Program-made: the position numbers and the translations under genes
Source: Drechmeria coniospora
Lineage: Eukaryota; Ascomycota; Sordariomycetes; Hypocreales; Ophiocordycipitaceae
Direction of reading: 5' to 3'
Assembly (NCBI RefSeq): GCF_001625195.1
Contig: NC_054390.1
Coordinates: 2,938,027-3,002,026 of the forward strand
DNA length: 64,000 bases
Shown here: one piece after another, positions 16,041-43,400 of the stretch
Layout of the letters: every line of letters starts with the position of its first letter
Position numbering within the stretch: position 1 is the stretch's first letter
Notes under the pieces: generated by a model
Seen by the model: the letters and a program-made list of their open reading frames with translations, nothing else
Databases searched by the model: none
Told to the model about the DNA's origin: nothing

Positions 16041-16044
16041 CAGT

Positions 16045-17308: not shown

Positions 17309-17386
17309 GTTCGTATAATTAGGAATACTCTTTGTAATTTTGTTATGGTTTTCCTTTTACAAAGAGGATTCCTAATTATACGAACT
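17309..17386. repeat. Palindrome of a transposon TIR
   Basis: Arms GTTCGTATAATTAGGAAT.. and ..ATTCCTAATTATACGAAC enclose a 20-bp centre, a near-perfect hairpin. The arm equals the terminal sequence of the elements at 22.7, 38.9, 39.1 and 40.1 kb, so this is two TIRs fused head to head. Confidence 0.8.
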
Positions 17387-17504
17387 GTATGTAATATACA
17401 GCAACCAAGACAAGTCAATGCGTGGGCAAAGTAATAGATTGGGTTACGTATTCGTAACTTTGCGACCCACTGGGCGATAAGTAGGACGCAACAGCGCAAC
17501 CTCC

Positions 17505-17592
17505 TTTTTCCTCCCTTCGTACTATATTAAATTATTGAAAGAGATCTCTCGTTACCAGTTTCCCCCACAACCGAATCAACAAGAACTGTTTC
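17505..17592 (-). repeat. Inverted-repeat element end (pairs with 17003-17110)
   Basis: Contains GAGATCTCTCGTTACCAG, TTTCCCCCACAACCGAA and the TACTATATTAAATTATTG stretch, the reverse of the 17.0-kb copy. The two ends delimit an element of about 590 bp that encloses the palindrome at 17.3 kb. Confidence 0.75.
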
Positions 17593-19430: not shown

Positions 19431-19433
19431 ACT

Positions 19434-19605
19434 AGTGCGACGTACACCGTATTCGTATATTTGGTGGTGGGGGCCGCGGACCGTTCTCCCATGGCCCATG
19501 GCGCATTTCGCTAGTTGGATTAAAGTTCCGCTACTCAACATCCCATTTCGATGTAGATTCGACACCATACAGCTGCAACGTATGACCAGTCAACAAGGAG
19601 CAGTA
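19434..19605 (+). repeat. Direct repeat, copy 1
   Basis: ATATTTGGTGGTGGG...GCATTTCGCTAGTTGG...TCCCATTTCGATGTAGATT...CAACGTATGACCAGTCA is repeated at 19795-19948 with about 75-80% identity by eye. Both copies abut ACTCCGTACTC or GTACACCGTATTC words. Confidence 0.8.
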
Positions 19606-19794
19606 ACTTTTATGTAATACCCAGTATATCTTGTTTAATACATGAAAGCGCTTATATAGATTTTCATATGATTCGACGTATCAGAATTCGATCTAAGTGC
19701 GAGGAAATGTATACACCTGCTCCACTTTACACGAGTGCATGTAGCGTTTATACGCACATTCTCAAGTTCCAGTGCACTACTCCGTACTCCGTAC

Positions 19795-19948
19795 TCGAAA
19801 GTATATTTGGTGGTCAGGGCTGATAGATCTCTCCGACAGCCCTTGGTGCATTTTACTGGTTGGTTTAAAGTTCCCCTGCCCAGTATCCCATTTCGATGTA
19901 GATTAGAAACCATACAACTACAACGTATGACCAGTCAGTTCTATTGTT
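19795..19948 (+). repeat. Direct repeat, copy 2
   Basis: Second copy of the 19434-19605 unit. Substitutions between copies are largely transitions, as expected of repeat-induced point mutation, but I have not counted them formally. Confidence 0.78.
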
Positions 19949-19949
19949 C

Positions 19950-22310: not shown

Positions 22311-22735
22311 TTGGGTAGTCTTACTAGCATAAATACCAGTATTTTTAACAAAAACCTACCATTACGGTATACAAAAGCTATGTATGATTGGTGCCTTGAT
22401 TGGAAGTATATGGGAAAGCAATATAAAATGCAAACTGGTACTAGAGATTGGACTAGGGAAGAAATAATAGCGTATATTGATTGGGATACGGCTAAAAACG
22501 ACCGCCTTGATAATAAGTTGGCTAATGTAATTTTTGTATAGCCTCTTCCAACAAGGCGACGTATTAATGGAATCTGGAGAAATATTAAGGAAGATATTGA
22601 GGAACAACAAGAATTATGCTCAAGATAATTACTTGTATGTATCTTTTTACTGCATAGGCGCTATCATTTTATAGCGGGGCGTTGTAGGGCGCTAGGCGTA
22701 AAGTCGTAGAACACGGTTCGTATAATTAGGAATAC
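22311..22735 (+). mobile_element. DNA-transposon 3' end with TIR
   Basis: A short frame (22311-22541) reads RDWTREEIIAYIDWDTAKNDRLDNK, continuing after a stop as RRRINGIWRNIKEDIEEQQ, a decayed coding end I do not assign to a family. It is followed by CGCTATCATTTTATAGCGGGGCG and the TIR ...GGTTCGTATAATTAGGAATACT. The same 215-bp end occurs inverted at 38870-39085. Confidence 0.65.
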
Positions 22736-22989
22736 TCCGAAAGTAATATTTTGGATAACTTGGCGGTGGGCAGCTGTAATAGTTAAAAGCATAATACGTC
22801 AAGTAACTAAAAGACGTGTAAGGCGTGAGATGGTAAGAAAAGAAGATAAAGGTCATTCTCATAACAAAAATACATAAATTGATCAGTCTGATGACTTCCA
22901 TGACCATCAACAATAAGTATCCGTTTCTCTGACTTTGTTGCTCTAGATAGGGGGATAAAGATCTGCTCAAGCCACTGTACTGCCGACAC
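22700..22989 (-). mobile_element. Fot1/pogo-type transposase fragment (DDE domain)
   Basis: Minus-strand translation from 22989: WLEQIFIPLSRATKSEKRILIVDGHGSHQT, then DQFMYFCYENDLYLLFLPSHALHVF. The LIVDGHGSH motif with its catalytic Asp and the LLFLPSHALH stretch are the Fot1/pogo/Tigger DDE core. Only about 70 residues survive and the frame then breaks, so this is a relic. Confidence 0.8.
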
Positions 22990-22995
22990 TAAAAT

Positions 22996-23789
22996 TTATT
23001 GTAGTTTGTTGCGATTATAATCTATATTATCGAGGTATAATCTGTAATATACGATTTGGGAATGTTGACTGCTATCTGCGGAGAAGTCGACGTCAATGCC
23101 GTCGAATCCCCAGTCCTTTATGAATTCGACAGCCGACTTAGCAAAGACGTCCCGGCCAGGTTTTGTAGCCGCTACGGTCCGGAAGATCCTGGACGAGCCC
23201 CAGCCACCAACTGACAGTATCATCTTGGTCATTCGCTTATGCTTCTTGAGCAGGTAGAGCTCCTTGACGCAGCCGTACGCATTTGTCCCCGACCTCTCCC
23301 AGGCTACAACTTGGCGTCAACGGAAATTTTCCCCATTGCTGCGGGAGTAGCAAGACCTACCGTAGTGCAGATACTTTTTTTGCAGATCGGCATAACGGTC
23401 GACGGAAACGCTAGATTCGCTATGCTTGTTAGCACCGCAACGTCCTCTCCGTTGCATACGTCGACTTACACCGTACCGTTGCTCAGGACGCCTACAAAGG
23501 AGTAGAATACGTAGGTGATATCGGAGAGCGGGAGATCTTGCGGCTGGTATTTCTGCTTGTAGATATCCCTGCAGTAAAACCATCATATCATCAGCTGGCT
23601 TGGATCGACGACGATAAATGCGGAGGGATGGAGTACGAACCGGTTGGAGAAGAAGACGGTATTGCTGTACCCATCAACCGAGGTCCCCGCTGCGCTTGCC
23701 GTATCCACGGGGTTCGGTGCGGCATGCCCGAGGCTCACCAAGGATGCAGCCAGTACTAACGTGAAGGACTTGAGGAGCATGGACGGCAT
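22996..23789 (-). pseudogene. GH18 chitinase, truncated at its catalytic motif
   Basis: On the minus strand a gene starts at 23789 with MPSMLLKSFTLVLAASLVSL..., a signal peptide, followed by GYSNTVFFSN. After a putative intron (acceptor near 23539) comes IYKQKYQPQDLPLSDITYVFYSF; after another, VDRYADLQKKYLHYG. Then MTKMILSVGGWGSS (the SxGG motif) and FIKDWGFDGIDVDFS. This last is the DxxDxDxE signature, but the sequence reads Ser where the catalytic Glu follows and diverges immediately, merging into AT-rich DNA at about 23060. The TIM-barrel C-terminal half is missing. Family certain, activity impossible as it stands. Confidence 0.82.
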
Positions 23790-26230
23790 CTTAACGACGT
23801 CCTTGTGGGATGGCAAGAGTTTAAAAGGGAAAGATGGAGAAAAAGCGTTGTAGTGTCGGTACGTAGGGAGGAGGGATAGTGTATAGGGAGGAAGAGACAA
23901 CGATACGGATAAATGGGAAAATGAAAAGGAGCGTATTGCGTCCAGCTGTACTGAAGGATGTTGTCGGACCCCGTGTAGTTGACGACAAACGAACAAGGGT
24001 GGGAAGAAGAAGACATGATCTTGATCCTCTTTAGACAAGAATTTATCATTTGATATCTAATAAACTGCATATCAACATTCTCTCAATAGGCACCTTTGTC
24101 TGGTGCCAGGGATGGCTTCTTATCTGCCGCAATTGCAGTACTATCTTCGTTAGTCTATGGGTTCGTTACAGGAGCCTTCGACTTCCATAACGTGGTAGAT
24201 CTCTGAATGTGAATTGGTCGTTAGTTTCCTCAAGATACTTCGATCAAGAAATGCGTAAGCTTGTACGAGAGGGTGGGAAGACTCCCGCGATAGTACGCTG
24301 TTGCATCTTCCCGGAGTGCAGTTTGCGTAGGGACGCGTACCGGGCTCGTAACTGTTACGACAGTCTGCTGGGTATTCTCATTACCAACTGCACTAAAAAT
24401 TCAACCATCGTCGGATGGGTTGGAACTAGGTCTATCGATATTCTTCCTTAATCTTCTTGTTGCTAACCACTAGGTGTCTACAGGGCCTGCTTGAAAAGGC
24501 AAGAAAGCCGACGTCGTTACGTAACTAACTACCAGGACTTGAACCCCGTTGCTATCACCGTGCAGTTTTGGAGACAGTCTCGAGGCACTGTAATGATTGT
24601 GCATTGACTAACGAACAGTAACCGGTCCCGTAGTGCTACGAATCGTCCGCTCGTCCGGCGGCTCTTGTCGTTCCGTTCTGTGGCCCTGCGAGTCACTCCT
24701 CTTTCGTCCGCGGCGCCACGCATCCGTCGCGTCATGTCAACTGGTACTGTGCATTGTCGATATTGTCGTCGGTTATTGTGTCTTCCACTGTACTGTAGAA
24801 GTGTAGTTTGATGCGCGCAGTCTGGGGCTGCGGCAGCTGTCCTGCGGCTGCGCACGTGATGGTTCCATCACAGTTACAGGCACTTTGGCGCGATGTAATC
24901 TCCATCTCCAATATATATAATTTGTTTCCTCCGTGCGAAATAATCACTCTGTCCTCTCTAGCCCTGTAGGTTATACTTGGAGCAACATTGAGGGAAATTT
25001 TCTTTCCATTTGTATGAAGGCGCTATATACCCCAGTGGTAGAATTGATTCAAGCTTGAAGCCCGACTAAGTCAGTCGCATCGAATCGCCACAGAGGTCGT
25101 TCGACTGGTATAAACCATGCCTTATCGATCGGAGACTGGTCCACCGTATACTATTGAACCAGCCAAGGAAGCCAAGGAAGTTCAGATGGTGTACGGAGTA
25201 ACCTACTCCGTATTACTCCATACTTCTACTAACTACCAGTAGTGCTTCGTACTAGATAGAATCCTATACCGATACGGGATGTTACAGTGGGGAGGACAAC
25301 AGTTGCGGCCCAATTTTAATCACGACATGCACAAACACGTCACCTCCATCACAACCTTCAACCTTCAACTCGAACCCTACGCTATTCAAGCCGGAACCAA
25401 ACTAACACTGGGGCCCTCATAAGAATACGAAAATGAAAACCCTTTGTGATTCAAAATTTTCAACATGTACTGCAGCGATAAAAGAAGAAACATCCCCTCT
25501 AGCAGTACGCGGTATCATTCGGCGCTACCGTACACATTCCAGCACAAAACTCGTTATCACGATCTGCAAGACCTTGATGCGTCACTCATACGCATAAAAT
25601 ATATATTTGTCGATGCATCCAGAATAGGCCTCTTATTTCCAACAAGCATCTTCTTCAGGAATGCAATATTGGGTGTTCTATCCGGACATTGCATCAGTGT
25701 CTTTACTCAACTCCATATAAATTGGGTACTCGTATACCGAACCCGATCCAGTGAAACCTTGTTTTGGACCAAGGTACGGAGTTGGTGTAGATGCATTAAG
25801 TTAGTATGGACTGTTTAATTTTTGGTGCCAACCTTATAACACCCGTTCCGTAGCTACAAGTACAGTGCCTTCGACCTCCTATGTTATATTCTTTGCTGTA
25901 TTACCTTCTTGGACGGAGCATAGCGCCACGTGCTGGACGCAAAGGCATTTCTATTGCGAGGGAATTTCTTATGCATTAATGCAGTAAAAATTCTGAACTT
26001 CTGTAAGAAGTACGTAGAGTCGTAGTATCAATTAATGATTCAACCCCCCTTACGATACTCGAATAAATGCCTGAACCATAAAACTGGGAAGCAGAACAAA
26101 GTTGGCGCCAAAAGGAGATTTGGCTAGTCCATCGCCACTTGCACGCTTGCACAAAAGCCAGTTTGGTATTGGGACACGTATATAGTTACTGGAAAGCAAG
26201 CAGTAGGAGGGTTTTGCACTAATACGCATT
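23790..26230. other. Region between the chitinase relic and the microexon gene
   Basis: No gene recognised. 24600-24900 is a GC-richer pocket with short frames but no domain. 25190-25215 holds GTACGGAGTA and TACTCCGTA palindromic words. 25440-26230 is AT-rich and unassigned. Confidence 0.4.
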
Positions 26231-26254
26231 TCAAGGCTAGCCCGATCTTAGCTC

Positions 26255-26393
26255 TTAATGGATTATAAGATTCCAGTGACCTACTGCCATCTCATTCTTC
26301 TTGTCTCCCGCGTTAATTTTGTTTTGCTATAGATTTCCCCCTTCCATTTACTGATATTTCTGCATTTATTTCTCGGCAATTCTTATCGCCAGG
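26255..26393 (+). promoter_or_regulatory. Putative promoter/5' leader of the microexon gene
   Basis: A TATA-like GATTATAAGATT lies at about 26261-26272. It is followed by a pyrimidine-rich tract (CTCATTCTTCTTGTCTCCC, then TTTCCCCCTTCCATTT), the usual composition just upstream of fungal start codons. The ATG at 26394 has the context CCAGGATGAAG. Placement is inferred from composition only. Confidence 0.4.
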
Positions 26394-26489
26394 ATGAAGC
26401 CCTTCGCTTTGTTAGTGGGGCTACTTGCTGGTCAAGCAATCGCATTTGGAACAGAAGATGTCAACAAGATCTCCGAGTTATTCCCTCGC
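26394..26489 (+). other. Exon 1 of the microexon gene: signal peptide
   Basis: Thirty-two codons, phase 0, ending TTCCCTCGC before donor GTAAGT at 26490. A hydrophobic core (FALLVGLLAGQAIA) follows one Lys, with a likely cleavage after AIA-FG. This is the only exon long enough for ordinary gene finders in the first 8.5 kb of the gene. Confidence 0.85.
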
Positions 26490-29400
26490 GTAAGTTCAAT
26501 AACGCAATTCGGGTATGACTTATTCTTATGCATACGGCCACTATAGAATGTAAGATCCAGCCGGTAACTGGCATTTTCTCGGATTTGGCTAATACGATTG
26601 GAAAACATAGCGCGTGAGTTCCTGCTTTTGTCTTTAATTGAAGCCAATTGATTACAGCAATGGCCCTAAGACGCACAAACTCTAGCTTGTCAGTTTCTAC
26701 CAACGTCCCAGCAACGAATAAGCTCCACGGCAGCATAATAATATATAGCAACTTTAGCTGGTTAGCTCTTCCTGAACTCGTATATTATGTGGTAATTCAG
26801 CTATATTCTAATACGTTTCCTATACTAGAGAGTATGTTCGTCCTATTCATGTACGAGAAAATTATTTGCAGTGGTATTCTAAAGCATCTGACACCTAAAG
26901 ACCGTATGCGTGAATACTAAATACAGATCTATCTAAAATATCAAGATGGTAACCACGCCAGTAACTTCAGGCCGTAAGTCCTGTATCGAAACGCAACAGC
27001 ATTTGTTTTTGTAAATCACTAATACAGCAGGCCACTCTAGGCGGTAGGTACTAGTATAGACTGTATAGTTCAATGTCGCCAGTAAACCTCTAATACAGCG
27101 ATCAACCCTATAGAAAGTATACAACTCCACATGATTCATCTGTAGCAATATGCTGGCAGTAATCTAATGCATCAGGCAACTCAAGCTCGTAAGTTTAAGC
27201 CAAGAACTACTAAAAGGTTTCAATATCTAAATACTAATACTTCTGGAAAACAATAGTTAGTAGGTTACACCTATATCTATAAGTAGAAGAAAGATACTAA
27301 TATGGCATATTAATCTAGCTGGTAGGTGTTAGTCTCGACCAGCAAACAAATCTCTAGAGTACTCATACGGCTACCAATATTAGAAAGTATGCTCTATGCA
27401 ACGATATCCGACACGAGACTACGGAGAAAGTAGTCTAATATAGCTGCTATTTCCAGACAGTAAGTTAGAGCCAGTAAAAGGAGGTCTGTTCATCAAATAT
27501 AGCAAGATGCTAAATCCACTGTAACTTTTAGACCGTAAGTTCCTTCACCTCACCTATCATAAATTCATCTAGTAACATACTATTACGGTTGCGTATAACA
27601 GAAAGTATGCTTCTTGCAATGATCAATTATGTTCATATGGGGATAATAATATCATGTTACAGAACGTAAGCGGCAGTATATAATATAGACATATGACAAT
27701 AGTGTAACTAGTACTAGGTCGTACGTCAAAACATAAAGCTAGGAACGGTGGTAGCGTGCTAATAAAGAGTCCAATACTAGGATGTATGATCCCTGCTAGG
27801 ATAAGCATTTGCTGGTAATATTCTAAAGTTACTAGCATCTCAAGATTGTACGTTCGAGATATTCGCAGCATTTTTATAGCGCGATACTTATAAGGCTGGT
27901 ACTATTAGTTAGTAAGTTCCGGAATCTGATATTCAAAAAGCTGATTAGGATACTAATTGGATTTTTAACGCTAGAAAGTATGTAATGACGAACGATTTTC
28001 GGCTACTAGTACCAGTCTCTAATACAGCTAGCAACTCTAGCCGGCAAGTTAAAACCAATGAATACGGCAAATCAACATGCTAATATCGCTGTTAACGATT
28101 AGATGGTAAGTATTTGCTCGTAATATATATACGTCGTTTCTATTTATCGTCTAATACAACTACTATTAACTAGAATGTAAATATCCTATTGGAATATTTT
28201 AATTCCAGTGCTAATATAGCTAGTAGAAAGTACGAAATGTGCAATAGTGATTTTATTAGTGATAAGTTACTAAGCTGCTTTGCAAATTTAGATCGTAAGT
28301 TTGAAATACCAATATCCGATCATCGAACTTATCTCGTTCGTACTAAATTGACTGTGAAATTAAATATAGCACGTAAGATCCTATAATAATCTAGAAAATC
28401 TAGTGAGGTGCTGATATGGATGGATCTCTAGGGTGTATATTTGTTCCGTCTTATCTGCAATACATAATGATACTAATTTGGGACTGTTAAGGTTGTAAGT
28501 TGGTTAAATTTCCTAGGGATAGGGCAAATGACCCGTAAGGCGTGTTCGTGGCTGAAAACTATAGGCTGTAAGTTTGGTTATTAATAGCACTACCTATAAG
28601 TAACGAAATGCTAATACTGGACGAAAATTTTAGACTGTACGTTCCTTGCCACTAAATAACAAATGATACGACTGTTAAAATGCTGAGTTGATAAACCAAA
28701 AAGGCCGTAAGTTCCTAATTTTTTCTACTCAACAGTCCGGGTGCTAGTGTGGAACTAATACAGCTGTCTTGAATAGTATGTAAGCTCCAGAGTATAATAT
28801 ATGAGCGTTGCTTTTAGTAGTAACCAGTTAAATGGTTACAATAGGCCGTAGGCACTTACCGGAAAAAGTATAAAACAGTTCGCTACTAATATCAAATATA
28901 GGTAGTAAGCTGCTAGTTATATCTATAATTTTGATTTCTAGCCATTTGCTGATCTAGCTTGGTAACTTGAGAAAGTAAGTAACTTACCGTAATGATAATT
29001 ATTTAGGTTACTTAAAGTACGCTGACTTCACATTAATTATAGAATGTAAGTTCTTCCTAGGTGGCAACAAGAACTGTGACTCGGCTTGGTAATAAAGTTG
29101 GAATATCTAGGAAGTATGCGCTCTATTAAGACCACAAGAGCATAATTACTAGAAGAATACAATGCTAAAATGAATCTAGGTGGTACATTTACCCAATACA
29201 GTATGTTAGGAGTCTATTTGCTGAAAATTTGACCCGAAATACTAGTTCGTAAGTTGGAAATAGAAATTTTAACATTGATGACTCTACTATTAATTCATTC
29301 ATTTAGTCCGTGAGTCCCTACATATTACCGACATATACTATATTTACGAGCAAGAATCGATAATCGCCTCAATAGAAAGTATCACACGCCGCCCCCCTCC

Positions 29401-32400
29401 CCCCTCTACCCTACTACCACTCTAGGAATACTAAAGTAGCTGGCAAATCAAGAGCGTAAGAGCTTCCTATACTAAAGGATTATCTCATAAATCATGTTAT
29501 TGATGTCCAGTTAAACCTTAGTTCGTATGTTCTTATCTAATATAAAGGGTTATTTGGTTTCTTTCTTGTACTGACGGTAATGAAAACCAGAAAGTATGCT
29601 CTTGCTTGTTCTAATAAATGACCAAGATGCATACTTATATATTACCTTAGTTGGTTCGTTGCTCGTTATATACGCTATAGGGTTGTATTCCTGCCAGATG
29701 CTAATGCAACTAGCGAATTTAGCCTGTGAGTTAATCCATAAGTTATGAGCTGTTCGTCACGAGCAATGTTGCTAATATGGCTTATAGGTTGTATGTTTTA
29801 CTCTTTTTAGTTTTGGTAATTATGATTGCATAGTATGCTAACCTGGCTTATTATTAGGAGGTTTTATTTTCCCATAACATCAAAAATTCCTTCCAATTGT
29901 ATTACGAGTCTAATACGCCTGGTAACTAGGATGTATTTTCTTACTATAGCAACCGATATTGTTACCAATATGCTAAAATATATCGATTTAGAAAGTAAGT
30001 GACTCCTAGCAACTCATACCAAATCGTATTGCTGGTTATAACCTGATGTCTCAATTGTAGAAAGTATATCGCACCTCGTATCTAAATAGTTTTATTGCTA
30101 GCAAGTTACTGATATAGGCAACGCATTTAGCTTGTTAGTGCCCACCTGTATAAGAAATAACTTTATTTGCAATCTTTCGCTAAGTTGACCGGTATTTAGC
30201 TTGTACGTTGCTTACATGTACTTCAAACGCTTGCCATTATTGTTTGTATACTAATAGGGCTGGTAACTAGGGAGTACGATTTCAATCAGCTACAATAAAC
30301 TGCATTGCTAGTATTGTATGCTAAAGTAATGCAAAAATAGATCGTACGTAATTATATTTTACTTAACTTATAATATCTCTACTGTATGGATGCTGACATT
30401 CTGATATTTAGGGCGTATGTTTTAATATACTACTAACAGTGACTTGGATTACTAATAAGACTTAAATCTAGAGAGTACGTTTTTATGTAATAAATATTGA
30501 CTCTGCTAACTACACAATGCTAATACTCCTGATATATTTAGACTGTGAGTTATATATCATATTATGAACGATATTTACTACTTGATGATTTAGTACTGAT
30601 GCCTATACGTAGTATGTTAGTTAATATGGAAAAATTGCTACCCTAACCTTTAGGAACGTTTTGTATAACTCAGATTCATAGGGTGTATGTTCGTACTATT
30701 GAAAGCCTTGTTAAGAAGATCATAAATCATCTCATTACCGCAGTCCGTATGTTATACCTATTACTAGCATCCATTAGTAGCATTATACTAAAGCGATACC
30801 AATTGCAGATCGTAGGTTAATTCTGTAAAACACACTATTCTCTTTCGAAATTTAAGAAATGTATTACACTAGGGTGTAAGATATTGTCTCTTATGGCGTA
30901 TTTTTATTTGGTACATACTAATGCAGTTGTCGTCAATAGTGGGTGAGTTTTGATGGTCTATTGCAAAGCCTAAATTGAATACTACTCATATGCTTCATTT
31001 TTAGCCAGTATGTTACTATTAGCCAGCAAAGTACAAGGAGTATACTCAAAATCCTCCAGGGTGTATGTATTTTTCTTGGTAACAGTTTGCTATTCAGACA
31101 CTAACCCAATGTGAATCGTAGCATGTACGCCTGTTAATAAAACTTCATAATGCATCTTTGTATTGCATGATTAATACGATTTATAACTATAGAAAGTAAG
31201 ACAATGATTCAAACAGCAAACTATGTTTCAGAAATTCTAATGAAGTTAAAATACTTAGGCCGTATGTTCTAAAACCGGAACTACAGTAATAACCTTGAAT
31301 ACTTATACGTTTGGAAATCATAGAACGTAATTTCCAATATTATAACATTTAGGTTTTAATGTTCCTGTATAACTTACATATATTAGGAGGTTAGGTATTA
31401 CCCATTGTAAAGCTATATAACTTATTGATTTTGTTAATATGGTTGGCAGCTATAGTCTGTTAGTTTCCATATTATCTACAAGTTCACACTAGCATACCCT
31501 AAATACTTGCCATATTAGTGGGTAAGTTCTATAGGTAGTTATGTGCTCTAAATATATTTGTATACTAATATAGCTGGCGACCAGTTTGTAAGTACATTCT
31601 AGCCAGTATTAGACATTTCGTTATTGCGAAATGATATGGTAACGAGATTATGCAGTTTGTACGTCAAGATTATCTATAAATAACGGACTTCAAAATATAG
31701 ACATGAAGCTAAAACAAGTATACTTTAAGATCGTAAGTCCCAAGCTTTTACAACGGGAATACTACTTCCGCTTAATAATAAATAGAACGTGCGATAATAC
31801 CCGATACTTGAGAATATACTTTTTAGTAAAATGATACTAAGTTAGGGAGTAAATGTAGAAGGCAAGTATTGAATAATGCCTTTAACTTTTTGAAACAAAT
31901 TTTGTATGGAATTACTAATATTGCTACTAACTATAGCCTGTAAGGTCTATCTCAAATTTAACAAGTTATCCAAATTCCCTACCGTATAATAATTAATAAA
32001 TGATTAGATGGTGAGTACTTCGCTAAGATAGTGACTACCTACTCAATTGGCAAAATACAAAGTCGTAATATAATATAGATGGTAAGATCTAAACTGTTGA
32101 GGAAAATGTTAAGAAGACTGTAGGATAATTATTTCTATCAAATATAGCTAGTATGTCCCCGCTCATTATGTATGATTGGAGATAATATTTTATTGCTAAT
32201 GTGATTCTAGTGGGCAAGTTATATTTATTCTTGTTGACTCTTGTCTAGTTTTAACTCGACTTTTGCTTCTAGGATGTATGATTACGAAGTTTGTCGTATT
32301 ACTACTATGCATGCTAATACTTTAGTATTGATAGTGTGTAGGTTTCCTCTGACGGCTAGCAGAAAGTTGGGTCAACTTGCAGGGTACTAATATAGCAGAG

Positions 32401-35400
32401 ATTGATAGCATGTATGTTCAATCCTATGAGAAAGAGGAGAATGGGCTCTCGTTACTGATACGTCCGGTATTTGTAGAACGTAAGTACTTACAATAACGTG
32501 CAGGAATATTAGTACTATTATTAATAGCGTAAAAATCTAGAATGTAAGCTTTATACGGAACAGATTCAAATTATTAGAAATTTACATGCTAATACTAGTG
32601 TAAAATTATAGCCGGTAAGCCCATACGTATATTTTTATTTGTATTATCCTTGTGCTATTTTAATATGAACGGAATGTTTAGGATGAAATTGTACGCTCTA
32701 TACTCCCTGCACATAACAAAGCAGAGCCATACTGAATGTCTCTATTCTAGTTCGTAAGTTGGTCGTATAAATATCCAATTGTAAAGTATATATACGACAG
32801 CAACTAATACTATAAAAAAGTATGTACGCTTTAGGCCACGAAACTTTAGTGACTGAATATATAATAAGTAACGGATATGACAACTACTTTAGGTTGTAAG
32901 TTTAACTATATAGCCCTTATATTACAATCGACGTTTCTTTTAACTGGCAACTCTAGGCTGTAGGTTATACTTGTAGTTAATTACTGTGTTTTGCTAAAAT
33001 TGCCGGTAACTTTAGTGCGTGGGTTCTTCTCTGCGAAGGTTAAGTAAACTACCAGTCGGAAGTTAATATGATTATCGACTAGATGGTAAGTATTGGGTTT
33101 AACTCTATAGGGGTAGTAAAGGTTTTGCTCAAAACTCTGAAATCTCTAGCGGGTAAAGTTTTGCAGTAAAAAAGTATTACTGAGTATCTACAAGCTGCTG
33201 ATGTACATACGACATCTAGTGCGTAAGTATTTCAGCAGAAATTATTTGGAACTACTTGCTAAAATATATTCATCAGAATGTAAGACTTTAATTATAGTCC
33301 GAAAGGTATTATTCCTGGCTCTGGGCTAATGATGGCAAACAAGGCGGTAAGTATATTCTTGGTCAGCCTTCAAAGTAATAATAATTCTAATAGCGAGGCT
33401 ATATACATCTAGCTTGTACGTTACTTCCTATAGCGAAGTAAAAGTCATGGTACTTGGAAGTATTGATAAGCTGTATCATTAGGAGGTAACTTCAACTATA
33501 TATTGTGAGCAGTTATGATTTTTTAGCATGCTAATTCGTTACAACTTTAGTTTGTACGTTTATATGCTAAAGAGTGTATACGTTAAATATTTCATAGCAA
33601 TTATCTTAACCAATGCGAAACATATAGCAAGTAAGCTGTCCAAAACATTTAATTTACATTGATAAAAAGAAAACCGATATACTAATAATGCATATAACTT
33701 AGTTCGTAAGTTCTGGCTTTGTAAAACAAGGCGATTATCTTATATAATTCAGGACGTAAGTTTATACCATGCCTGTAACTGTGTATAGGTGCAATGATGG
33801 CTGATATGTATAGCACGTATGTTTATCCTTGCACTAATGTCTACCGTTATTGAAGTTTGCTAATGCACATATGAAGGGCGTAAGAATTTTGCCCCGATTC
33901 TCGAGAATTTCAGCAATATTCTAATACGCCTGGCTACTTTAGGCGGTATGTTATTTTGAAAGCTTGGGACCGATCCAATTACTAAAATTTATCTAATGCG
34001 GCTGTAAACTCAAGAACGTAGGCTTTTCCTAGTTTCGAAGGAATGTTATTGATAGGGAAATCTAAGCCATTGTACTTCAGCTAGTAAGTACTCAGCCTAG
34101 ACATTTCTAAATTAAAGTGTTACATTGGCTTACAATTGGAAACCACTAGTGTGTGAGTTTGAGAGGATTAGTCTAGGAAGTATTGGAGATACTAACGTAG
34201 TATTAGCTTGTACGTTGATGGAATATTAATACGGAGCCAGCAATCTACTGCGAGATGCTAATGACATGAACTGTAGAAGGTAACTCATACGAATTCGGAG
34301 CCAAACATCCATTATTAGATACTAATGTATATGAACTGTAGAATGTAAACATCCCAAATAATAGATGAACGTAGTATAACTGGCAGCACTCTGTTACAGT
34401 CTGCTAATTGCATTGATAACAATAGTCGGTAAGTCTGTCCTACCTTAGCAAATAGAGTAACGTAATCTTTATAGTTGGGGTATACTAATAGAAATGGGCA
34501 CTATAGGAGGTAATTTCTGACTAATTATATGTAAGGATAGAGCTTGTTGCGCTAATTATTTGGCTATCTAGTTTGATGTAGGTTGGAACCTATCCAATAA
34601 ATAAAATCAAAAACTACTAGTATACTAATCTAATATGTTGTGCTATGATAGCCTAGGGTATGTTCTAAGTTCTTCCGTATAGTTATTAATGACTTGAATC
34701 GTAGCCATGTACTGACTTATGTCTCCATACTAGATAGTAAGTTTAAATTATTTTTCATTTCAAGTCAGAGTTTTGTCGGTATTCTAATACATTAGACGAT
34801 ACTAGGACGTGGGTTGTAACCTGACTACTAAAGCGGTGGTTATATGTTAAATTGTTCCAGATCGTACCTAGCGTGAGTTAATCTTACGAATAATTGTTCA
34901 AGAAGCATTCTGATATATTTCGCTATGGGCGGTGCGTTTCTACTTTCTCATTAATGTTTGTAAATTAGTGTTATTCTATTGCTGATATAGTTGATATTAT
35001 AGGACGTAAGTGCCTTCCATGACCGAGTAGTTTAAGCTTGGTCTGATTGTAATCCTACCGGCCGTTATAGAAGTTGGAAATTGTTCCATTGGACCAATTG
35101 CTGGAATTAGTGCGTTCAATCTAATGAATAAGATGGCTTTTTGTTTTAGTTGCAGAACTCATTCGGCTAAACTTATACTTAGTGGCAGCAAGTAAGTTTT
35201 AACCATTCGCAATGTATGAAATAGAACCTATTCACTAATACACCGGGCGTATTTAGAAGGTAAGGCCTTCTGGCACCTTTGGTGGAGTCGCACTATTATT
35301 ATAGGAGTTTACATATGCAATTGCAATAGAAACAAAGTCTCGAGGTAGGTTCTGGAATGAAAAAGGCAACATTACTATGCATATTACGCTCATGCCATAC

Positions 35401-37154
35401 TGGATTTAGCCAGTAAGTTTCCGTATATAGTAGATAGTACGTATTCCAACTAGCTATTTGCTAATATAGATGCATATTTTAGAATGTATGGTTTTACCTA
35501 CCGCTCGTTCTGAGTTAAGTTATCAAGACACTAATACTACTGACTGCTAAGGTCGAAAATATTCCGGATGAAGTAAGTTTATATATTACAATATTGGGCG
35601 TTGCAGTATTATCAAAATTCTTACCTTTATTGTAACCTTAGGCAGAGGATAAGGTAAGTTACTATAAACTTTCCAGAGCAATTGATATTGTCAGGGAAAA
35701 TATGATATGTATAGCATGATTTAGAATGTATGTCATTGCAGTCCTATTATCGTCGTAATAACAGTTCTACTGTAAGTTGCTACTCCGTGTAAACCAATAT
35801 GTATATTACAAGGTGTACTAATATATTTTGCTTGGTAGAAATAGACGGTTCAGCTTACCGACGCCGGAAAGGTATGTAAACTACTCCCCTTAATGAACCG
35901 AGTAGTATTTCAATATCTTCGATGTGGTGCTAATAAGGTTTGGAATAAGGACTCTCCCGACGCAGTTGATAATACTGTTCGTCCATTCCCACCATTCCAA
36001 AGTACGAAACTTTATGCTTAGGTTGATCGTAGCTTGCCGATTCCGAGATTGAAGTAAGTTGCTATGCGTTGGGGATCTAGCCTTGTACAAATTTCAATAT
36101 GATAGTATATTGACATTGATTAGAAGGTAGCTTGACTAGCAATAATGTTGAATTATTACTTGCATGTTGATAAGGCTACTATAGGAAGCTCAACATTCAG
36201 TTAACGAGACTAACCCTCCACCTGAAGTGATTAATAGCACTCCAGTTGAACAGAAAATAGTTAGTCTATGCCGAATATCAAGAATCGTCGAGATATAAAT
36301 ACCGTCTATAGGAATCTACGGTTGTTGCTGAGGAACATGCCCAGAGAGATAATCCGAGCTATAAAGTGAGCTACTTCTAATTCAAGAGAGGAGTCAATAT
36401 TGCAAGCGACGTACTGATGCATCATCTTCCGATGTTTGAAGGTAAATATATTAGCTACTACAGATCTTCCCAGTATATTAATCGCGTGAATATTTACAGT
36501 ACTGGGAAGTAAGCTTTCGCAGCACTACGCATATTTCGTATACTATTAGATGCTAATAGTATAATATGCAATTTCAGAGAGTAAGTTCCACCGATTCTGC
36601 CGAATGATATTTAGGGCAGTATACTAAAGGAGATATTCATATAATAGAAGAGGCCTGTACGCTTTTACCATTTTATTATTTTTTGCTACTTGAATCCTAA
36701 TGCAATATGTATATCTAGATCGTGCGTTAACACCCATGAGAGTGGCATGCAGAATTATGGTTCCATGTTAATATATTAGCATATTACAGAAGGCATGTGG
36801 TTTTGACAAATTAGTAAGTTAAGTTTCGTTACGCTAATACCTATAATTCTTACTTTAGGAAGTAAGCTATTCCTGGCCACAATATATCAGACAGTTAGTC
36901 TACTGCCGTTTTGAATACTAATTTAGTGTTGTTGTGTTACTATAGCCGGTATGTCGAACAAATACGCTGTAATATCCGATATTTCTTTACTTATGTAAAT
37001 GCTTCTGATAGCCTTGGTAAAAGGTATGTTTAAACTGGCAGCGTACTATTTCGAACTGCTAATAGGACATTCGGCCGGCAAATATAGCGGGTATGCTTCC
37101 TAACTACACAAATATTTGCTGCAAGCGTGTGAAATTGACTTATAAATATAGTAG
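26394..37154 (+). CDS. Secreted protein encoded by ~150 exons, mostly single-codon microexons
   Basis: Exon 1 (26394-26489, 96 nt) encodes MKPFALLVGLLAGQAIAFG, a clear signal peptide, plus 13 residues. From there the DNA has a regular grammar: donor GTRNGT, ~40 variable bases, branch CTAAT/CTAAC/CTGAT, 10-20 bases, TAG/CAG/AAG, exactly three bases, next donor. I placed 151 exons including the stop exon (37152-37154, TAG). About 132 are 3 nt long; the first 91 after exon 1 are all 3 nt. None of the triplets is a stop. Longer exons (6-75 nt, all multiples of 3) appear near 32.7 kb and mainly after 34.5 kb. Introns average ~65 nt. The product is ~274 aa with four Cys (codons at 32335, 33016, 33220, 34150; the middle two form CMRC). 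N-glycosylation sequons include NES, made by exons at 31324, 31387 and 31456. No family recognised. The model after 35.0 kb is less certain. No splicing evidence is available here. Confidence 0.8.
26547..29113 (+). other. Microexon block 1: exons 2-40, all 3 nt
   Basis: First base of each 3-nt exon: 26547, 26611, 26686, 26758, 26829, 26901, 26971, 27041, 27114, 27186, 27257, 27319, 27384, 27457, 27532, 27602, 27663, 27718, 27781, 27845, 27909, 27975, 28041, 28103, 28174, 28227, 28292, 28370, 28432, 28492, 28565, 28634, 28704, 28777, 28845, 28902, 28972, 29043, 29111. Examples: TAG|AAA|GTATGC at 27384, TAG|ACC|GTAAGT at 27532. The intron after 28041 has a GC donor (GCAAGT). Weakest calls: 26686, 26758 (donor GTTAGC) and 26971, where an alternative ATG triplet at 26946 would leave a 22-nt intron. 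Confidence 0.8.
29180..31939 (+). other. Microexon block 2: exons 41-82, all 3 nt
   Basis: Starts: 29180, 29246, 29307, 29376, 29453, 29522, 29591, 29651, 29723, 29788, 29858, 29930, 29992, 30061, 30131, 30200, 30271, 30341, 30412, 30472, 30542, 30613, 30682, 30744, 30809, 30873, 30940, 31005, 31060, 31122, 31193, 31259, 31324, 31387, 31456, 31519, 31585, 31656, 31730, 31786, 31846, 31937. Weak donors follow 29651 (GTTCGT), 29858 (GTTTTA), 31387 (GTTAGG) and 31786 (GTGCGA). A C-rich run (GCCGCCCCCCTCCCCCC) sits inside the intron after 29376. The 88-nt intron before 31937 is among the longest. Confidence 0.8.
32008..34509 (+). other. Microexon block 3: exons 83-120
   Basis: Starts: 32008, 32079, 32148, 32211, 32273, 32335, 32409, 32477, 32541, 32612, then a 9-nt exon 32682-32690, then 32751, 32821, 32893, 32957, 33016, 33083, 33150, 33220, 33277, 33344, 33413, 33483, 33551, 33628, 33703, 33753, 33814, 33877, 33943, 34015, 34081, 34150, 34207, 34277, 34342, 34426, 34507. 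All but 32682 are 3 nt. A second GC donor (GCAAGT) follows 32211. All four cysteine codons of the protein lie here, each an exon on its own. Confidence 0.8.
34572..37154 (+). other. Microexon block 4: mixed exon sizes to the stop
   Basis: Exons: 34572-34577, 34652-34657, 34734-34736, 34806-34808, 34861-34872, 35003-35005, 35071-35109, 35183-35191, 35257-35259, 35330-35344, 35410-35412, 35483-35485, 35552-35572, 35642-35653, 35725-35727, 35845-35871, 35950-35976, 36033-36053, 36124-36126, 36185-36259, 36312-36320, 36387-36410, 36500-36508, 36578-36580, 36648-36656, then 3-nt exons at 36719, 36790, 36859, 36946, 37088 and the stop at 37152. All keep phase 0. 35552 reads VENIPDE, 35642 AEDK, 36185 has NET and NST sequons, 36648 KRP. 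Alternatives exist at 35.73-36.5 kb (a 7-nt exon at 35765; a longer exon at 36312). GC donor after 36790. Confidence 0.62.
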
Positions 37155-37159
37155 TGAGC

Positions 37160-38860
37160 TACTACTATTCTGAACAATTTCCCGGCTAGTCTGGAGGACT
37201 TTTAGGTAAGATATTTTGTAGGCGGATGGTAGCTACGGTCGTTGTATGGAGTTCTCTACTGGAGTTTAAGCTCGGCCGATCGTTAGCGGGGTCCTGTCAT
37301 TACCGTTTATTTAGTTGGAAGGGGGGATCAATTCTATACTATATTGAAAAACCTTGAAAAATTCTAAACGTATATACTATCTGCCGATTGCTATTCCCCG
37401 TCAATACAAGGTAATGCAGTATTAACGGCGGATATAATTCATGGAGGATGCCCCACTATAACAATTCCATGTAACATAGATTGAGTTATAAGGCTCGCAA
37501 TATTAAGGAACCTATATTTTTGAGTCTTTATGCGCATCTGATTTTGGGAAGAGCTAACCGTAAAACCAACAAGACATACAATGTAGGTGCTGCGTACGCC
37601 CATAGCTGCAAAACCATACGGTATTTCTGTGAGCTGGGGGGCGAGTTATTATTCGAACAATATGCGAATGAATACAGCTGCGGGAAATAGTAAAAAATTC
37701 TACATTCCTGTAGTATGCTTTTCTATTTTTGTAAATGCTATTTCTACTCCTATTGTACGAAAGTATAAGTGGGATGATTGGAATTACAGTATCTATATTT
37801 GTTTGAGAATTGCTACAAGTCGCTTTAAATATAAGGAGTGAAGCTTGCATTAGGATTAGTCTCCAGATAATACACTTCGTACTTATAGTACGTATTAGTT
37901 TTGAAGGAATTGCTGTTCTTGTAATTTGCAGTAAGACATGAAGAGTGTGACTAGAGCACTAAATATATCATATGACTATAGCAATAGTGATAATAGAAGG
38001 AACTACTACTTAGAAACTTCCTAGATATCTATCTATATATATCGAACGAGGGTCGAGGGGTATCTGAATATGTGCATGGGCAATCTGGAACGTGTGTAGT
38101 ATATAAGCCATCTGGAACGCATATAGAACGTACATAGAACGTACAGATGCATAGTTAAACGAGTCACACGAAGTTACAACAACGGTTAGGAGGGTGCACT
38201 TTTAGTAACAAGTGCGCATTCCTTGGTAAGTAAATGAATTGTTTGGTATGCCAACGGTCTATAGCCTGTAGATATAGCAGTGTTATTTATACAGGATTAG
38301 GAAACCCCCAATCAGTAGAAAGTATAAATTTCTCAGATGACACAGAATACTCGTCAAAACCGAGTTGCCCGCTAAGTTTACCCTGTAATTACCTTATGTC
38401 TTGAGTGGTCTCCAGTATTATAAGATGTCTCTGACTTGGAGCAGTAAACCTATCATCTGACGTAAAGTGCGTTATGTAAATAGTGTTAGCTAAGCCTACT
38501 GCCTGACTGAGGTTGACTAGACAAACCAGATAATATAACGATACAATGTCCTGTAGAAGCGTACCGTGCCTTAGTAAACCTACTACTTGGGCGCGCTGCG
38601 TTATTAAGTATGTGGCGCCGGTATTTATATATAAATTAGGTAAGGTGACTGGGAATCAGTTGTTCTAGAAGGATATACTCATACAGATGCAGTGTATGCT
38701 GTATGGCAGTTATGTAGTAAAGCAGACATACTAGTATAACTACTAGGTTTGTTAATATATTTCGGCTGTACAACATATTAGCGCTGCCCTTGCTACAGGT
38801 TTATTCTAATCTTGCAAAGCAGGTTATAGGTATCGTGAATCCGAACTGATAATAGCAATA
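37160..38860. other. AT-rich DNA after the microexon gene
   Basis: A few splice-like words continue to about 37220. Frames at 37481-37850 on both strands (62-98 codons) have no domain I recognise. The rest is unassigned AT-rich sequence, a possible decayed transposon. Confidence 0.4.
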
Positions 38861-38869
38861 AGTATTCCT

Positions 38870-39085
38870 AACTATACGAACCGTTTTATCTCTTCACACG
38901 ACTTTACGCCTAGCGTCCTACAACGCTCCGCTATAAAATGATAGCGCCTATACAGTACAAAAAGATACATACAAGTAATTATCTTGAGTATAATTCTTAT
39001 CGTTCCTTAATATCTTCCTCAATATCTCTCCAGATTCCATTAATACTTCACCTTATTCGAAGAGGCTGTACAAAAATTACATCAG
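38870..39085 (-). mobile_element. Second copy of the transposon end seen at 22.52-22.74 kb
   Basis: Reverse complement of 22520-22735: TTCCTAACTATACGAACCG, CGCCTAGCGTCCTACAACGC, ATCTCTCCAGATTCCATTAA and GAAGAGGCTGTACAAAAATT match in order. The decayed coding end is included, so this is a dispersed DNA transposon. Confidence 0.78.
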
Positions 39086-39111
39086 CCAATATGAATTCAT
39101 ACTAGAGTACT

Positions 39112-40090
39112 CATAATTATACGAACCGTTTCCTCTATTCACACGATTTTTCGCCTAGCGCCCCACAACGCTCCGCTATAAAAATTTAGTGCCCATATAG
39201 TACAAAAGGATACATACGAGTTACAGCAGTCCTAGCAGTCACAGCAGCGGCCCGGCTGGTCACACCTCAGCCGAATACTAATTGTACGAACGCTCTCGGA
39301 TAGTTACTATATTAATAAATGCATAATGGAGATGGAATAAGTCAGCAGAATCAGTTAGAATAAAGCCTTTAACGTTATGATAGGCACGTTCAACTGGACT
39401 ATTAACTCTCTAACCAAAGTTACGGTACTTAATACAGTACCCTACCCGTTCGTACCGTAGGAGTATATATTCCGAAGAAATATAACGTAAGATTCGTTCT
39501 TGGTATTCCGAGTAAATTGTATTTAGCTTTTCCTATCTAAGGTCAAATTCAGCCTTAGTTTCAGTATATACTACATGCTGCTACATTATAAATATATTTT
39601 TAGAGCCGTAACCATTAACGTCTTGCTTATTACAGTTAGCTAGGCTATTACTGTGACTGCCGGGACCGCTGTGACTGCTGGGACCGTTGTGACTAGCCGG
39701 GCCGCTGCTGTGACTACCGGGACCGCTGTGACTGCCGGGCCCGTTGTGACTAGCCGGGCCGCTGCTGTGACTGCCGGGACCGCTGGGACTGCCGGGACCG
39801 TTGTGACTGGCCGGGCCGCCGCTGGGACTGCCGGGACCGCTGTGACTGCCGGGCCTATTGTGACTGCTAGGACCGCTGTGACTGCCAGGGCCGTTGTAAC
39901 CAGCCGGGCCACTGCTGTAACTGCCAGGACCGCTGTAACTGCCGGAGCTGTAACCAGCCGGTCTGCTAGTACTGTGACTCGTGTGTATCTTTTTGTATGG
40001 GCACTAAAATTTTATAGCGGAGCGTTGTGGGGCGCTAGGCGAGAAATTGTATAAATAGAGGAAACGATTCGTATAATTATGAGTACTTTA
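39112..40090. mobile_element. ~980-bp non-autonomous element with ~95-bp TIRs
   Basis: Left terminus TACTCATAATTATACGAACC...CGCCTAGCGCCCCACAACGC...AAATTTAGTGCCCATA (39112-39213) is matched by the reverse complement at 39995-40090 (GGGCACTAAAATTTTATAGC...GGTTCGTATAATTATGAGTA, allowing small changes). No transposase lies between; the interior carries the GC-rich minisatellite. The terminal 20 bp relate it to the element at 22.7 and 38.9 kb, so it was probably mobilised by the same transposase. Confidence 0.75.
39650..39975. repeat. 18-bp GC-rich minisatellite inside the non-autonomous element
   Basis: About 18 imperfect units of ACTGCCGGGACCGCTGTG, some with an AGCCGGGCCGCTGCTGTG variant. Plus frame reads TAGTAVTAG; minus frame TTVPAVTAVPAV. 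Related short pieces are at 17925-18015 and 39222-39265. No coding evidence beyond repeat-driven openness. Confidence 0.88.
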
Positions 40091-40252
40091 GTATAAATTC
40101 ATATTACTGGTTATACTATAAGCGGTATGCTTAAAGCAGTGTAGCGGATAACTACAGCCATAGAAATAACACAAAGAAACCTATACTAGTGTCAAAGGTT
40201 AATTTACACTAGCGCTATAAACTCTAATTTGCACTAGTATATTATACCAACC

Positions 40253-40335
40253 AACAGTTAGTGTTGGTTCGGTTCTGGGGGAAACTGGTAACAAGAGATC
40301 TCTTTCAATGGATTCAATTTGGTACGAAAGGAGGG
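40253..40335 (+). repeat. Third copy of the 17.0-kb element end
   Basis: GTTGGTTCGGTTCTGGGGG, AAACTGGTAACAAGAGATC and ATTCAATTTGGTACG match 17003-17110. It abuts the 5' end of the adhesin repeats and may be what removed the adhesin's signal peptide. Confidence 0.72.
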
Positions 40336-40439
40336 AAAAGAGGCTGCCCCTGAGCGGCCACTTTTATCCTCCCCGGAATCGTGCCCCACACGATTACGTG
40401 ATCCTAGTCTACTATTGGCTACTATATACATACAACACA

Positions 40440-43400
40440 CACTTACCGAGCTAACGCCAGGGCTTACCCCAGGAACTTCAACTATTCCGCCGTCATCGGG
40501 GTGCATGACAAACTGCGTAACGAGAATCATTATTACTGTCACTGGGGATGTTGTTACCGAAACAACAAATGGATCGATCCCTGGAACAACCACTATCAAA
40601 CCACCCTCAGGGTGCATAACCGATTGTGCAGCAAGAGTAGTTGTAACGGTCACTAGCAATATTGTAACGCAAACCGTCCTCGGGCAATTAGGTGGAACAA
40701 CGACTCTTAGACCACATCCTGGATGCGTTACTGATTGTACAACAACAGTCGTTGTAACTGTCACAGGTAGTATTGTTACTGAGATATCTCCCGGAGTAAC
40801 CCCAGGAACGTCCACTATTCTGCCACCGTCAGGATGCATGAAAAATTGCGTAACAAGAATTATTATAACCGTTCTTGGAGGCCTTGTTACCGAAACGACT
40901 GTAGGGTCAATTGCTGGCACAACTACAATCCCACCGCCATCAGGGTGCACGACGGAATGCACGCCGAAAGTAATTGTAACAGTTACTGGCGCTATTGTAA
41001 CGTATACTACTACCGGTGAAACCGCTGGAACAATAACTGTCCTTCCATCTATAGGATGCATTTTCGATTGCACAACAAGGATTGTTGTAACGGTCACAGG
41101 AAGTATGATTACCGAGATAACGCCAGGTCCTACCCCAGGAACATCGACTATTCCGCCATTATCGGGATGCATCACAAATTGCATAACCAGAATCATTGTA
41201 ACCATCACTGGAAATATCGTTACCGAAACGACCGTTGGACCCACTGCTGGAACATCCACATTCCTACCATCATCTGCATGTATTCTGAATTGCACAACAA
41301 GGGTAGTCATAACTGTTACAGGTGCCATTATTACTGAGATGACACCGGGGCCTACCCCGGGAACATCAACTATTCAGCCGTCATCAGGATGCAAAACAAA
41401 TTGCGTAACAAGGATTATTATAACCGTTCCTGGAGATAGTTTTACAGAAACAACTCCCGGACCTATTGCTGGAACAATTACTATCAGACCTCCTTCAGGG
41501 TGCACGACAAGCTGTACTACAAGAATAGGTATAACAGTTACTGATACTCTTGCAACTAAAACGATCACTGGTCAAACAATTGGAACGACAACTCTTCTGC
41601 CATTATCTGGATGTATTCTGAATTGTACAACAATGGTAGTCGTAACTATCACGGGGGGATTCATTACTGAGACAACGCTCGGACCTGCCCCAGGAACTTC
41701 AACTATTCCGCCATCATCAGGCTGCATCACAAACTGCGACACAAAAATCATTATAACCGTTACTGCACAGATTGTTACTGAAACGACTCCTGGCGCCAGT
41801 GCCGGTACAACAACTATCCCACCACCACCTGATTGCACGACCAACTGTACAGCGAAAGTAGTTGTTACTATTCCCTGTACTATTATTACGCAAATTACAC
41901 CGGGCCCAAAAGCTGGGACAACAACTGTCTCATCACCATCTGGATGTATTGTAGATTGCACAACCAGGGTAATCATAACTGTCACAGGTAATATGATTAC
42001 TGAGATAACAGCAGGGCGTAGCCCAGGAATTCAACTATTCCACCGTCACCAGGATGCATCACAAACGGCGTCACAAAACTTATTATAACCGTTCCTGCAG
42101 AAATTACTACTGAAACAACTCCTGGGGCGAGTGCAGGTACTTCTACCATTCCACCACCACTAGGGTGCACGAACAATTGTACAACGAGTGTAGTTATTAC
42201 TATTCCCGGTACTGTTCTTACACAAACTACTACAGGCACAACAGCTGGGACAACAACTATCTTACCGTTATCTGGATGTACAGATTGAGCAACAAGCGTC
42301 ATCGTAACTATACCTGGTAGCGTTGTTACAGAGATGGTTCAAGGACCTACCCCAGGAACGTCCACTATCCCGCCGTCATCGGCCTGCATTACAAGTTGTA
42401 TAACAAAAATCGTGGTTATCGTCAGTGGAGCTATTGTTACTCAATCAACACCTGGGGCCACTGCTGGTACAACAACAATCCGTCCAGAACCGGGATGCAC
42501 TGCCAATTGTATAACTAGAGTAGTTGTTACTACTGGCGCTATTATAACGCAAACTACTCCGGGTCCAACAGCTGGAACAATAACCGTCCTTCCATCTTCC
42601 GGGTGTATTACAGATTGTACAACAAAAGTAATTATAACGATTACCGGTAATATTATCACTGATATAACTCAAGGCCTATCAGCTGGCACAACAACTATTC
42701 CGCCATCAGCAGGGTGTATAAGCGATTGTACAACAAGAGTCATTATTACTATTACTGGAGCTATCGTTACCGATACGACTCCTGGAGCCAGTGCTGACAC
42801 ATCAACTATTCTACCATTACCAGGCTGCACAATCAATTGTACAACGAGAGTTGTAGTTACTGTAACTGGAGCTATTGTAACGCAAACCACTCTGGGCCCA
42901 ACAGCCGGGACAACAACTGTCCTACCATCATCTGGATGTATTTTGGCATGTACAACTAGGGTAATCATAGCTGTTACAGGCGACACTATTACTGAGATAA
43001 CAACGGGGCCTTCCCCAGGGACTTTAACTATTCCGCCGTCATCAGGCTGCATTTCAAACTGCGTAACAAAGATCATTATAACCGTTACTGGAGGCAATGC
43101 TTCAGAAACAACTACTGGAACAAGCCCTGGTACATCAACTATTCCACCATCACCGGGTTGCACAACTAATTGTACAACGAGAGTTGTAGTTACTGTTACT
43201 GGTGCTATTGTAATGCAAACCACCCCGGGCCTAACAGCTGGGACAACAACTATCCTTCCGTCATCAGGGTGTATTATAGATTGCACAACAAGAATAATCG
43301 TAACTATCACACGCAATATAATAACTGAGATAACTCCGGGGCCTACACCAGGAACTTCAACTATTCCGCCGTCATCAGGCTGCATTTCAAACTGCGTAAC

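Follow-up and report, generated by a model that had tools for sequence, protein, structure and literature searches.

The plus strand between positions 26394 and 37154 of a 64,000-nucleotide (nt) stretch of the genome of Drechmeria coniospora, an endoparasite of nematodes, almost certainly carries a real coding gene with more than 120 exons of a single codon each. We refer to the whole stretch (contig NC_054390.1, positions 2,938,027 to 3,002,026) as the window and to this gene as the window gene. Judging from the genome sequence, it is very likely intact, belongs to a family of six paralogues and codes for a probably secreted orphan protein of about 280 amino acids (aa). An initial annotation, made from the letters of the window, had proposed a gene of more than 130 single-codon exons at this place, and the proposal is strongly supported by the absence of stop codons from 613 triplets, by five collinear paralogues whose products belong with that of the window gene to one protein family, and by decoding controls.

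The repeated succession of acceptor, three bases and donor on which that proposal was built is real. On the plus strand of 26394-37160 there are 157 donor-like GTRNG sites (R, purine; N, any base), 96 of which stand exactly 3 nt behind a YAG acceptor (Y, pyrimidine), and none of the other spacings from 0 to 20 nt accounts for more than 10 sites. The reverse strand of the same interval has no site with a spacing of 3, shuffles of the interval (n = 300) gave a mean of 2.77 and a maximum of 10, and the remainder of the window (1-26000 and 38001-64000) has 4-9 such sites per 26 kilobases (kb) per strand. Random AG-NNN-GT spacing, which together with a lack of transcripts would have spoken against the proposal of the initial annotation, is not what the tally by program found. 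When splice sites were decoded by a length-blind search, in which exon length, frame and stops were all ignored, 102 of the 141 internal exons of the window gene were 3 nt long and 127 were multiples of three, while an earlier version of the search gave 105 and 130 of 145 exons, respectively. The same decoding of the reverse strand yielded 2 of 75 exons of 3 nt and 27 of 75 multiples of three, and five shuffles yielded 5-10 exons of 3 nt among 80-90; these controls were scored as in the genes, with an exon limit of 400 nt compared to 200 nt in the genes. When one exon length was favored in the splice search, 3 nt scored 1648, and the remaining lengths between 1 and 9 nt reached 1078-1102. A chance origin of the YAG-NNN-GTRNG spacing is thus ruled out by the tally, the shuffles, the reverse strand and the decoding controls.

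The triplets enclosed by these signals carry a coding signal. They were taken by splice motif only, without frame or stop information, and pooled over six gene copies, namely the window gene (W) and the five tandem-array genes A, B, C, D and E described below. No stop codon occurs among the 613 motif-defined triplets, compared to 22.8 expected from position-wise base frequencies, and all 61 sense codons are present, so that the three stops alone are missing. Each copy separately has no stop against 3.3-4.6 expected (for the window gene alone, 3.3 expected, P 0.04). Two control triplet sets from the same loci contained 8.5% (135/1590) and 2.5% (9/353) stops, and aligned intron triplets contained 6.7%. 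An acceptor and a donor placed almost back to back would also suit recursive-splicing or ratchet sites, at which AG-NNN-GT lets a few long introns be removed stepwise, the triplets being irrelevant or not kept in the messenger RNA (mRNA). In classical recursive splice sites, however, the AG directly abuts the GT, with no nucleotides in between, and together with the missing stops, the full set of sense codons and the Cys, Trp, Tyr and His codons kept in all copies this makes such sites a highly improbable explanation.

Searching the genome (28 contigs, 32.8 megabases (Mb)) revealed five further copies. They are arrayed in tandem at C2:4297000-4379500 of the 10.2-Mb contig that also carries the window, 1.3 Mb from the window gene, and all of them lie on the minus strand, with starts 15-21 kb from one another. 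In the 90 kb around the array (4290001-4380000), 528 motif sites lie on the gene strand versus 17 on the other, and every one of the six genes has 8.2-9.5 motif sites per kb. Exon number varies among the copies: the models of W, A, B, C, D and E have 148, 148, 159, 152, 182 and 156 exons, of which 130, 125, 138, 134, 152 and 142, respectively, are 3 nt long. A DNA alignment made without coding information contains 178 distinct positions of 3-nt exons, 140 of them present in at least four copies and 88 standing in common columns of all six. Twelve of these 88 exons are invariant in amino acid, whereas for intron triplets the figure is 43 of 893 (P 0.002, Fisher test), and paired exons encode the identical amino acid in 622 of 1699 cases, compared to a mean of 562 and a maximum of 588 in 200 simulations. 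Third-position changes, seen in seven of the eight exons that are invariant in amino acid and variable in DNA, were dropped as evidence because the genetic code itself forces such a pattern. Four DNA searches of the genome for more distant family members, whose results are lower bounds, matched these six loci only, and one of the four missed copy E. To look for a conventionally encoded relative, the first 228 aa of copy D were compared with the genome in six frames; the matches were confined to exon 1 of the six genes, the sole part that a six-frame protein search recovers.

Two other origins of such loci have to be considered. A decayed, non-coding tandem repeat with a unit of about 69 base pairs (bp) and splice-like signals would account for the regular spacing and for the unit duplications found in copies E, D and A, but it is barely credible, given the mutual dissimilarity of the window-gene introns, the outcome of the coding tests (stops, paired amino acids, invariant exons) and the conservation of exon 1, the stop position and the 3ʹ untranslated region (UTR). 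A family that once coded and is now silent or degenerate would be at home in AT-rich surroundings that resemble the products of repeat-induced point mutation (RIP), and the model of copy D does contain a stop; we nevertheless regard this as very unlikely, since an open frame runs through 147-158 coding exons in the models of five of the six copies (models that penalize stops) and the motif-defined triplets of every copy are free of stops, despite an intron-core difference of 36-42% in 13 of the 15 copy pairs.

The final model of the window gene, in which donors beginning with GC were allowed and off-frame exons and stops were penalized, comprises 148 exons, 147 of them coding and the terminal one opening with the stop codon. 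All 147 coding exons are multiples of three in phase 0 and 130 are 3 nt long, in agreement with the initial count of about 132 in about 150 exons with multiples of three for the others. The gene limits proposed at first also match, with the start at 26394 and the end at 37154, the last base of the TAG stop. The model has about 147 introns, where about 150 had been proposed, and joining its exons in silico gives a protein of 282 aa, where about 274 aa had been proposed. The initial claim of 91 consecutive 3-nt exons behind exon 1 was nearly exact: 90 exons separate exon 1 from a 9-nt exon, and 89 of them are 3 nt.

All parts of the gene lie on the plus strand. A region kept in the paralogues, the probable promoter and 5ʹ UTR, occupies 26051..26393; its blastn matches to copies E, C, D and A start at 26051-26065, and that to copy B starts only at 26333. 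Exon 1 (26394..26489) contains the start codon and the signal-peptide-like sequence MKPFALLVGLLAGQAIAF, ends in phase 0 and is present in all six copies. The microexon array that follows (26547..32614), defined by the spacing tally and the splice models, has 90 exons; the one that is not 3 nt (29180-29200, 21 nt) is maybe better read as GTG (29180-29182) with a weak donor, which would make all 90 exons 3 nt. Three array exons (28041-28043, 31859-31861 and 32211-32213) use the only GC donors of the model. GC donors were unused in the first model, and allowing them restored paralogue-like residues, such as KPMMLWDC beside KPYRLWDC and KPYFLWEC. The single-codon exon TGG at 31519..31521 encodes an invariant Trp, for which every copy has TGG in the corresponding columns of the alignment, and the exon TGT at 32335..32337 encodes the first invariant Cys (TGT or TGC in the six copies). 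A 9-nt exon (32682..32690), 9 nt in all six copies according to the exon marks on the protein alignment, precedes a second single-codon run (32751..34509), in which 27 of 27 exons are 3 nt and spell the motif FYVACMRC...H...C. The second, third and fourth invariant Cys are encoded by the exons TGC at 33016..33018, TGC at 33220..33222 and TGT at 34150..34152, respectively. The charged C-terminal tail (34572..37090) is made of 28 mixed exons, 14 of 3 nt and the others of 6 to 75 nt in multiples of three, and the TAG stop codon (37152..37154) stands right behind the last acceptor, where the other copies have TAG, TGA or TAA.

When the six spliced proteins were aligned, they formed one family with 27 invariant residues in the N-terminal 183-205 aa of each, 13 of the 27 being in exon 1. 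The mature domain has invariant W, C, Y, C, C, L, H and C around the motif FYVACLRC, and the invariant W, C, Y, C, C, H and C lie in single-codon exons; this cysteine-containing domain would be spelled nearly wholly by exons of one codon. In the window protein, C124, Y133 and C136 form an invariant spaced C..Y..C. The product is probably secreted, as the first exon looks by eye like a signal peptide in six of six copies. That it is directed at the host is an even call, suggested by the signal-peptide-like start, the fast divergence and the parasitic life of the organism. A search of the Protein Data Bank (PDB) with the family proteins gave a best match at an expectation value (E) of 0.89, and a hit to DUF3615, reached by one of the six family members at E 0.018, was treated as noise.

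Several observations weigh against an intact coding family of this kind. No homologue was found at E 0.001 among 5.8 billion predicted proteins (5045 candidates) in a search that needs shared exact 5-residue words; annotation pipelines, however, would miss genes of such architecture. The splice-site matrices were trained on the motif sites themselves, with the controls scored by identical matrices. The open frames of the final models are partly built in by the penalties on stops and off-frame exons, a bias that the motif tally and the length-blind tests escape because they use neither frame nor stops. The pooled stop statistics are less independent than they look, as the six copies are related. 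TAG makes up 7.1 of the 22.8 expected stops, CAG, AGT and AGG are depleted too, and the avoidance of TAG may be a splicing effect in which a second AG disturbs the acceptor; for TAA and TGA alone, none was found against 15.7 expected (P 1.5e-7). Selection on the codons was detected, though it is weak on average: the ratio of nonsynonymous to synonymous change (dN/dS) in 3-nt exons ranges from 0.32 to 1.35 over the 15 copy pairs, so that conservation rests on few residues. In strictly aligned exons (51-71 per pair), the exon difference exceeds the intron-core difference, which is 24-42% between copies, in 13 of the 15 pairs; for A-C, A-E, B-C and D-E, the whole 95% interval of the exon difference exceeds the intron value. 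Such excess divergence fits diversifying change, with misalignment as another possible cause. As for the models, the 3ʹ part of copy D contains one stop and a pair of introns that are off phase, the C-terminal third of the window gene is uncertain, its charged tail being the weakest stretch, and six window-gene introns of 117-161 nt may conceal exons.

The splice signals look ordinary for a fungus. Donors are GTAAGT-like, branch sites CTAAY-like and acceptors YAG, mostly near consensus, and the branch lies most often 18 nt from the acceptor; by a simple pattern, 23 of 145 window introns show no CTAAY-like branch. Intron length has a median of 66 nt and a range of 45-161 nt. The intron bodies had been described initially as sharing no sequence and forming no tandem repeat, and the window introns indeed score like shuffled ones (similarity of adjacent introns -0.180, distant -0.201, shuffled -0.195), with no pair above 0.5 among adjacent, distant or shuffled introns alike. 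An array of introner-like elements is accordingly ruled out in the window gene, as its introns are not recent copies of one another. Fusion of introns through exon loss is a weak explanation for introns of at least 110 nt, since an exon lies inside in at least two other copies for 11 of 41. RIP indices of the introns are moderate (TpA/ApT 1.05-1.13), and no conclusion was drawn from them.

The window gene is presumably expressed and, in all likelihood, fully spliced in vivo. The ordinary spliceosome would remove its roughly 147 short phase-0 introns (GTAAGT ... CTAAY ... YAG). As a 3-nt exon is unrecognizable as an exon unit, each intron would be defined across itself, and the introns could be excised singly and in any order. 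The resulting mRNA would have a normal reading frame of about 0.85 kb with a signal peptide. An alternative to such constitutive splicing is that microexons are skipped variably, giving a cloud of in-frame variants from each copy, as has been proposed for the schistosome micro-exon genes (MEGs). Every skipping pattern would stay in frame in the window gene, since 147 of 147 coding exons are phase-0 multiples of three, and donor strengths vary, with three GC donors, as does exon content between copies; we still think this combinatorial use unlikely, because the invariant core residues and the near-consensus donors and acceptors of most introns fit constitutive inclusion.

With every exon a phase-0 multiple of three, gain, loss or duplication of a unit changes whole residues and causes no frameshift. 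Around introns 6-9 of copy E (C2:4378716-4378967), four exon-intron units follow one another, three of them near-identical and one similar to these, and this run is a recent event that added codons singly. In the tail of copy D (C2:4333174-4334548), a three-intron unit occurs four times, giving a repeated C-terminal peptide followed by the stop in the model; a few tail introns of copy A are alike, and the window gene has no trace of unit duplication. Codon-by-codon growth is thereby supported as one route of change, but the 88 exons common to all six copies must predate the copies, so that unit duplication leaves the bulk of the array unexplained. The protein would diverge fast around a fixed W/C/Y/C/C/H/C core, as a host-facing secreted protein might. 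We tentatively raise the idea that one codon per exon serves as an evolvability device, with the residues of the mature domain as independent cassettes that can be duplicated, lost by splice-site decay or skipped, always in frame. If so, the family would try out insertions and deletions of single residues, and perhaps splice variants too, far faster than an ordinary gene does while the cysteine core of its host-facing secreted protein stays fixed, and such an architecture, doubtful as the idea is, would have no described counterpart known to us.

In kind, we rate these as microexon-rich secreted genes in an extreme new form, and we claim no novelty for the chemistry of splicing. Schistosome MEGs, which are similar in outline, have a signal peptide in the first exon, where the present genes have a sequence that looks like one by eye; they encode secreted, fast-evolving proteins and have most of their coding sequence in short exons in multiples of three. 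MEG microexons hold several codons each and number tens per gene, whereas here about 130 exons have one codon and the organism belongs to another kingdom. As a structural class, MEGs are marked by short symmetric exons, about 36 nt at most, that make up 75% of the coding nucleotides. In our models, coding nucleotides in exons of at most 36 nt amount to 582/846 in W, 681/816 in A, 660/795 in B, 615/789 in C, 862/1269 in D and 567/792 in E, so that three of the six copies attain a 75% share. No sequence relation to MEGs was found, either among predicted proteins (no match at E 0.001 by shared 5-residue words) or in the PDB (best match at E 0.89). MEGs are products of the secretory oesophageal glands, according to the accessible part of PMC5825161.

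The aphid bicycle and megacycle genes resemble the present family in that they have paralogues, diverge fast, contain numerous tiny internal exons that share a single phase and encode putative secreted effectors. In the portion of PMC9168663 at hand, bicycle genes have internal exons almost all of phase 2 and about 17 exons on average, and in M. sacchari the megacycle gene encodes 2092 aa by 118 exons. It offers a precedent for small exons in numbers above 100, although they measure about 53 nt each by our own division; here, 148 exons, mostly of 3 nt, encode 282 aa. Phase-2 internal exons were not found, every intron of the window model being phase 0. There is no contiguous Cys-Tyr-Cys (CYC) in the six spliced proteins, and some bicycle homologues likewise lack the CYC motif (same portion of PMC9168663). 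The invariant spaced C..Y..C resembles the bicycle CYC by letters only, probably by coincidence.

Fusarium belongs to the same fungal order as Drechmeria. Its CYP621A gene has a 1-nt exon that is accurately spliced according to RNA evidence (part of PMC12940212), so that such splicing is feasible in this order; the exon is ultra-short and flanked by introns as here, but it is a single one in an ordinary gene. Xlr2 of Trichoderma virens contains a functional microexon in a filamentous fungus (part of PMC11121469), single and regulated, unlike the arrays here. Judged by titles and the starts of abstracts among the matches listed, the open-licence PMC literature yielded no description of single-codon exon arrays, and the accessible parts of the Drechmeria genome papers PMC4792172, PMC7500977, PMC10512298 and PMC4859500 do not mention a microexon gene.

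If the reading of an intact single-codon-exon gene is true, this would be, to our knowledge, the most exon-fragmented protein domain described, with about 130 of 282 codons in exons of their own and six genes alike. A fungal spliceosome would then handle about 147 consecutive introns mostly 3 nt apart, which bears on intron definition, minimum exon size and fidelity, and a class of secreted genes could escape annotation and spliced aligners. Should the product also be directed at the host, it would be a third unrelated parasite case of tiny in-frame exons, beside the schistosome MEGs and the aphid bicycle genes, and the reason for tiny exons could be put to the test in a fungus with C. elegans among its hosts.

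Downstream of the stop, in the 3ʹ UTR, a block of about 70 nt (37230-37298, plus strand) is near-invariant in the six-copy alignment. RNAalifold places a possible stem-loop there in which hardly any pair varies; with hardly any position varying, the stem has no covariation support. No Rfam family matched 26000-37600 at E up to 1. The AT-rich stretches of the window at 14000-26000 and 38000-50000 have TpA/ApT ratios of 1.19 and 1.30, compared to 0.70 and 0.62 at the GC-rich window ends, and may reflect the aftermath of RIP, which they resemble. A 333-bp unit is repeated in tandem about 21 times (76% match) at 41262-48331, in a run of plus-strand open reading frames (ORFs), and an ORF with GLEYA/PA14 domains (48751-50112) lies downstream of the run; together they look like a large repetitive adhesin beside the microexon gene. 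Among the best 120 of 1013 matches to the neighboring ATP11 protein, the one from Tolypocladium comes first (73% identity), and after sequences without a name come those of Hirsutella, Metarhizium and Ophiocordyceps. As given in the accessible part of PMC4792172, D. coniospora ARSEF 6962 belongs to the Ophiocordycipitaceae, near Tolypocladium inflatum, and has a 32.5-Mb genome with chromosomes of 12.5, 10.2 and 9.8 Mb.

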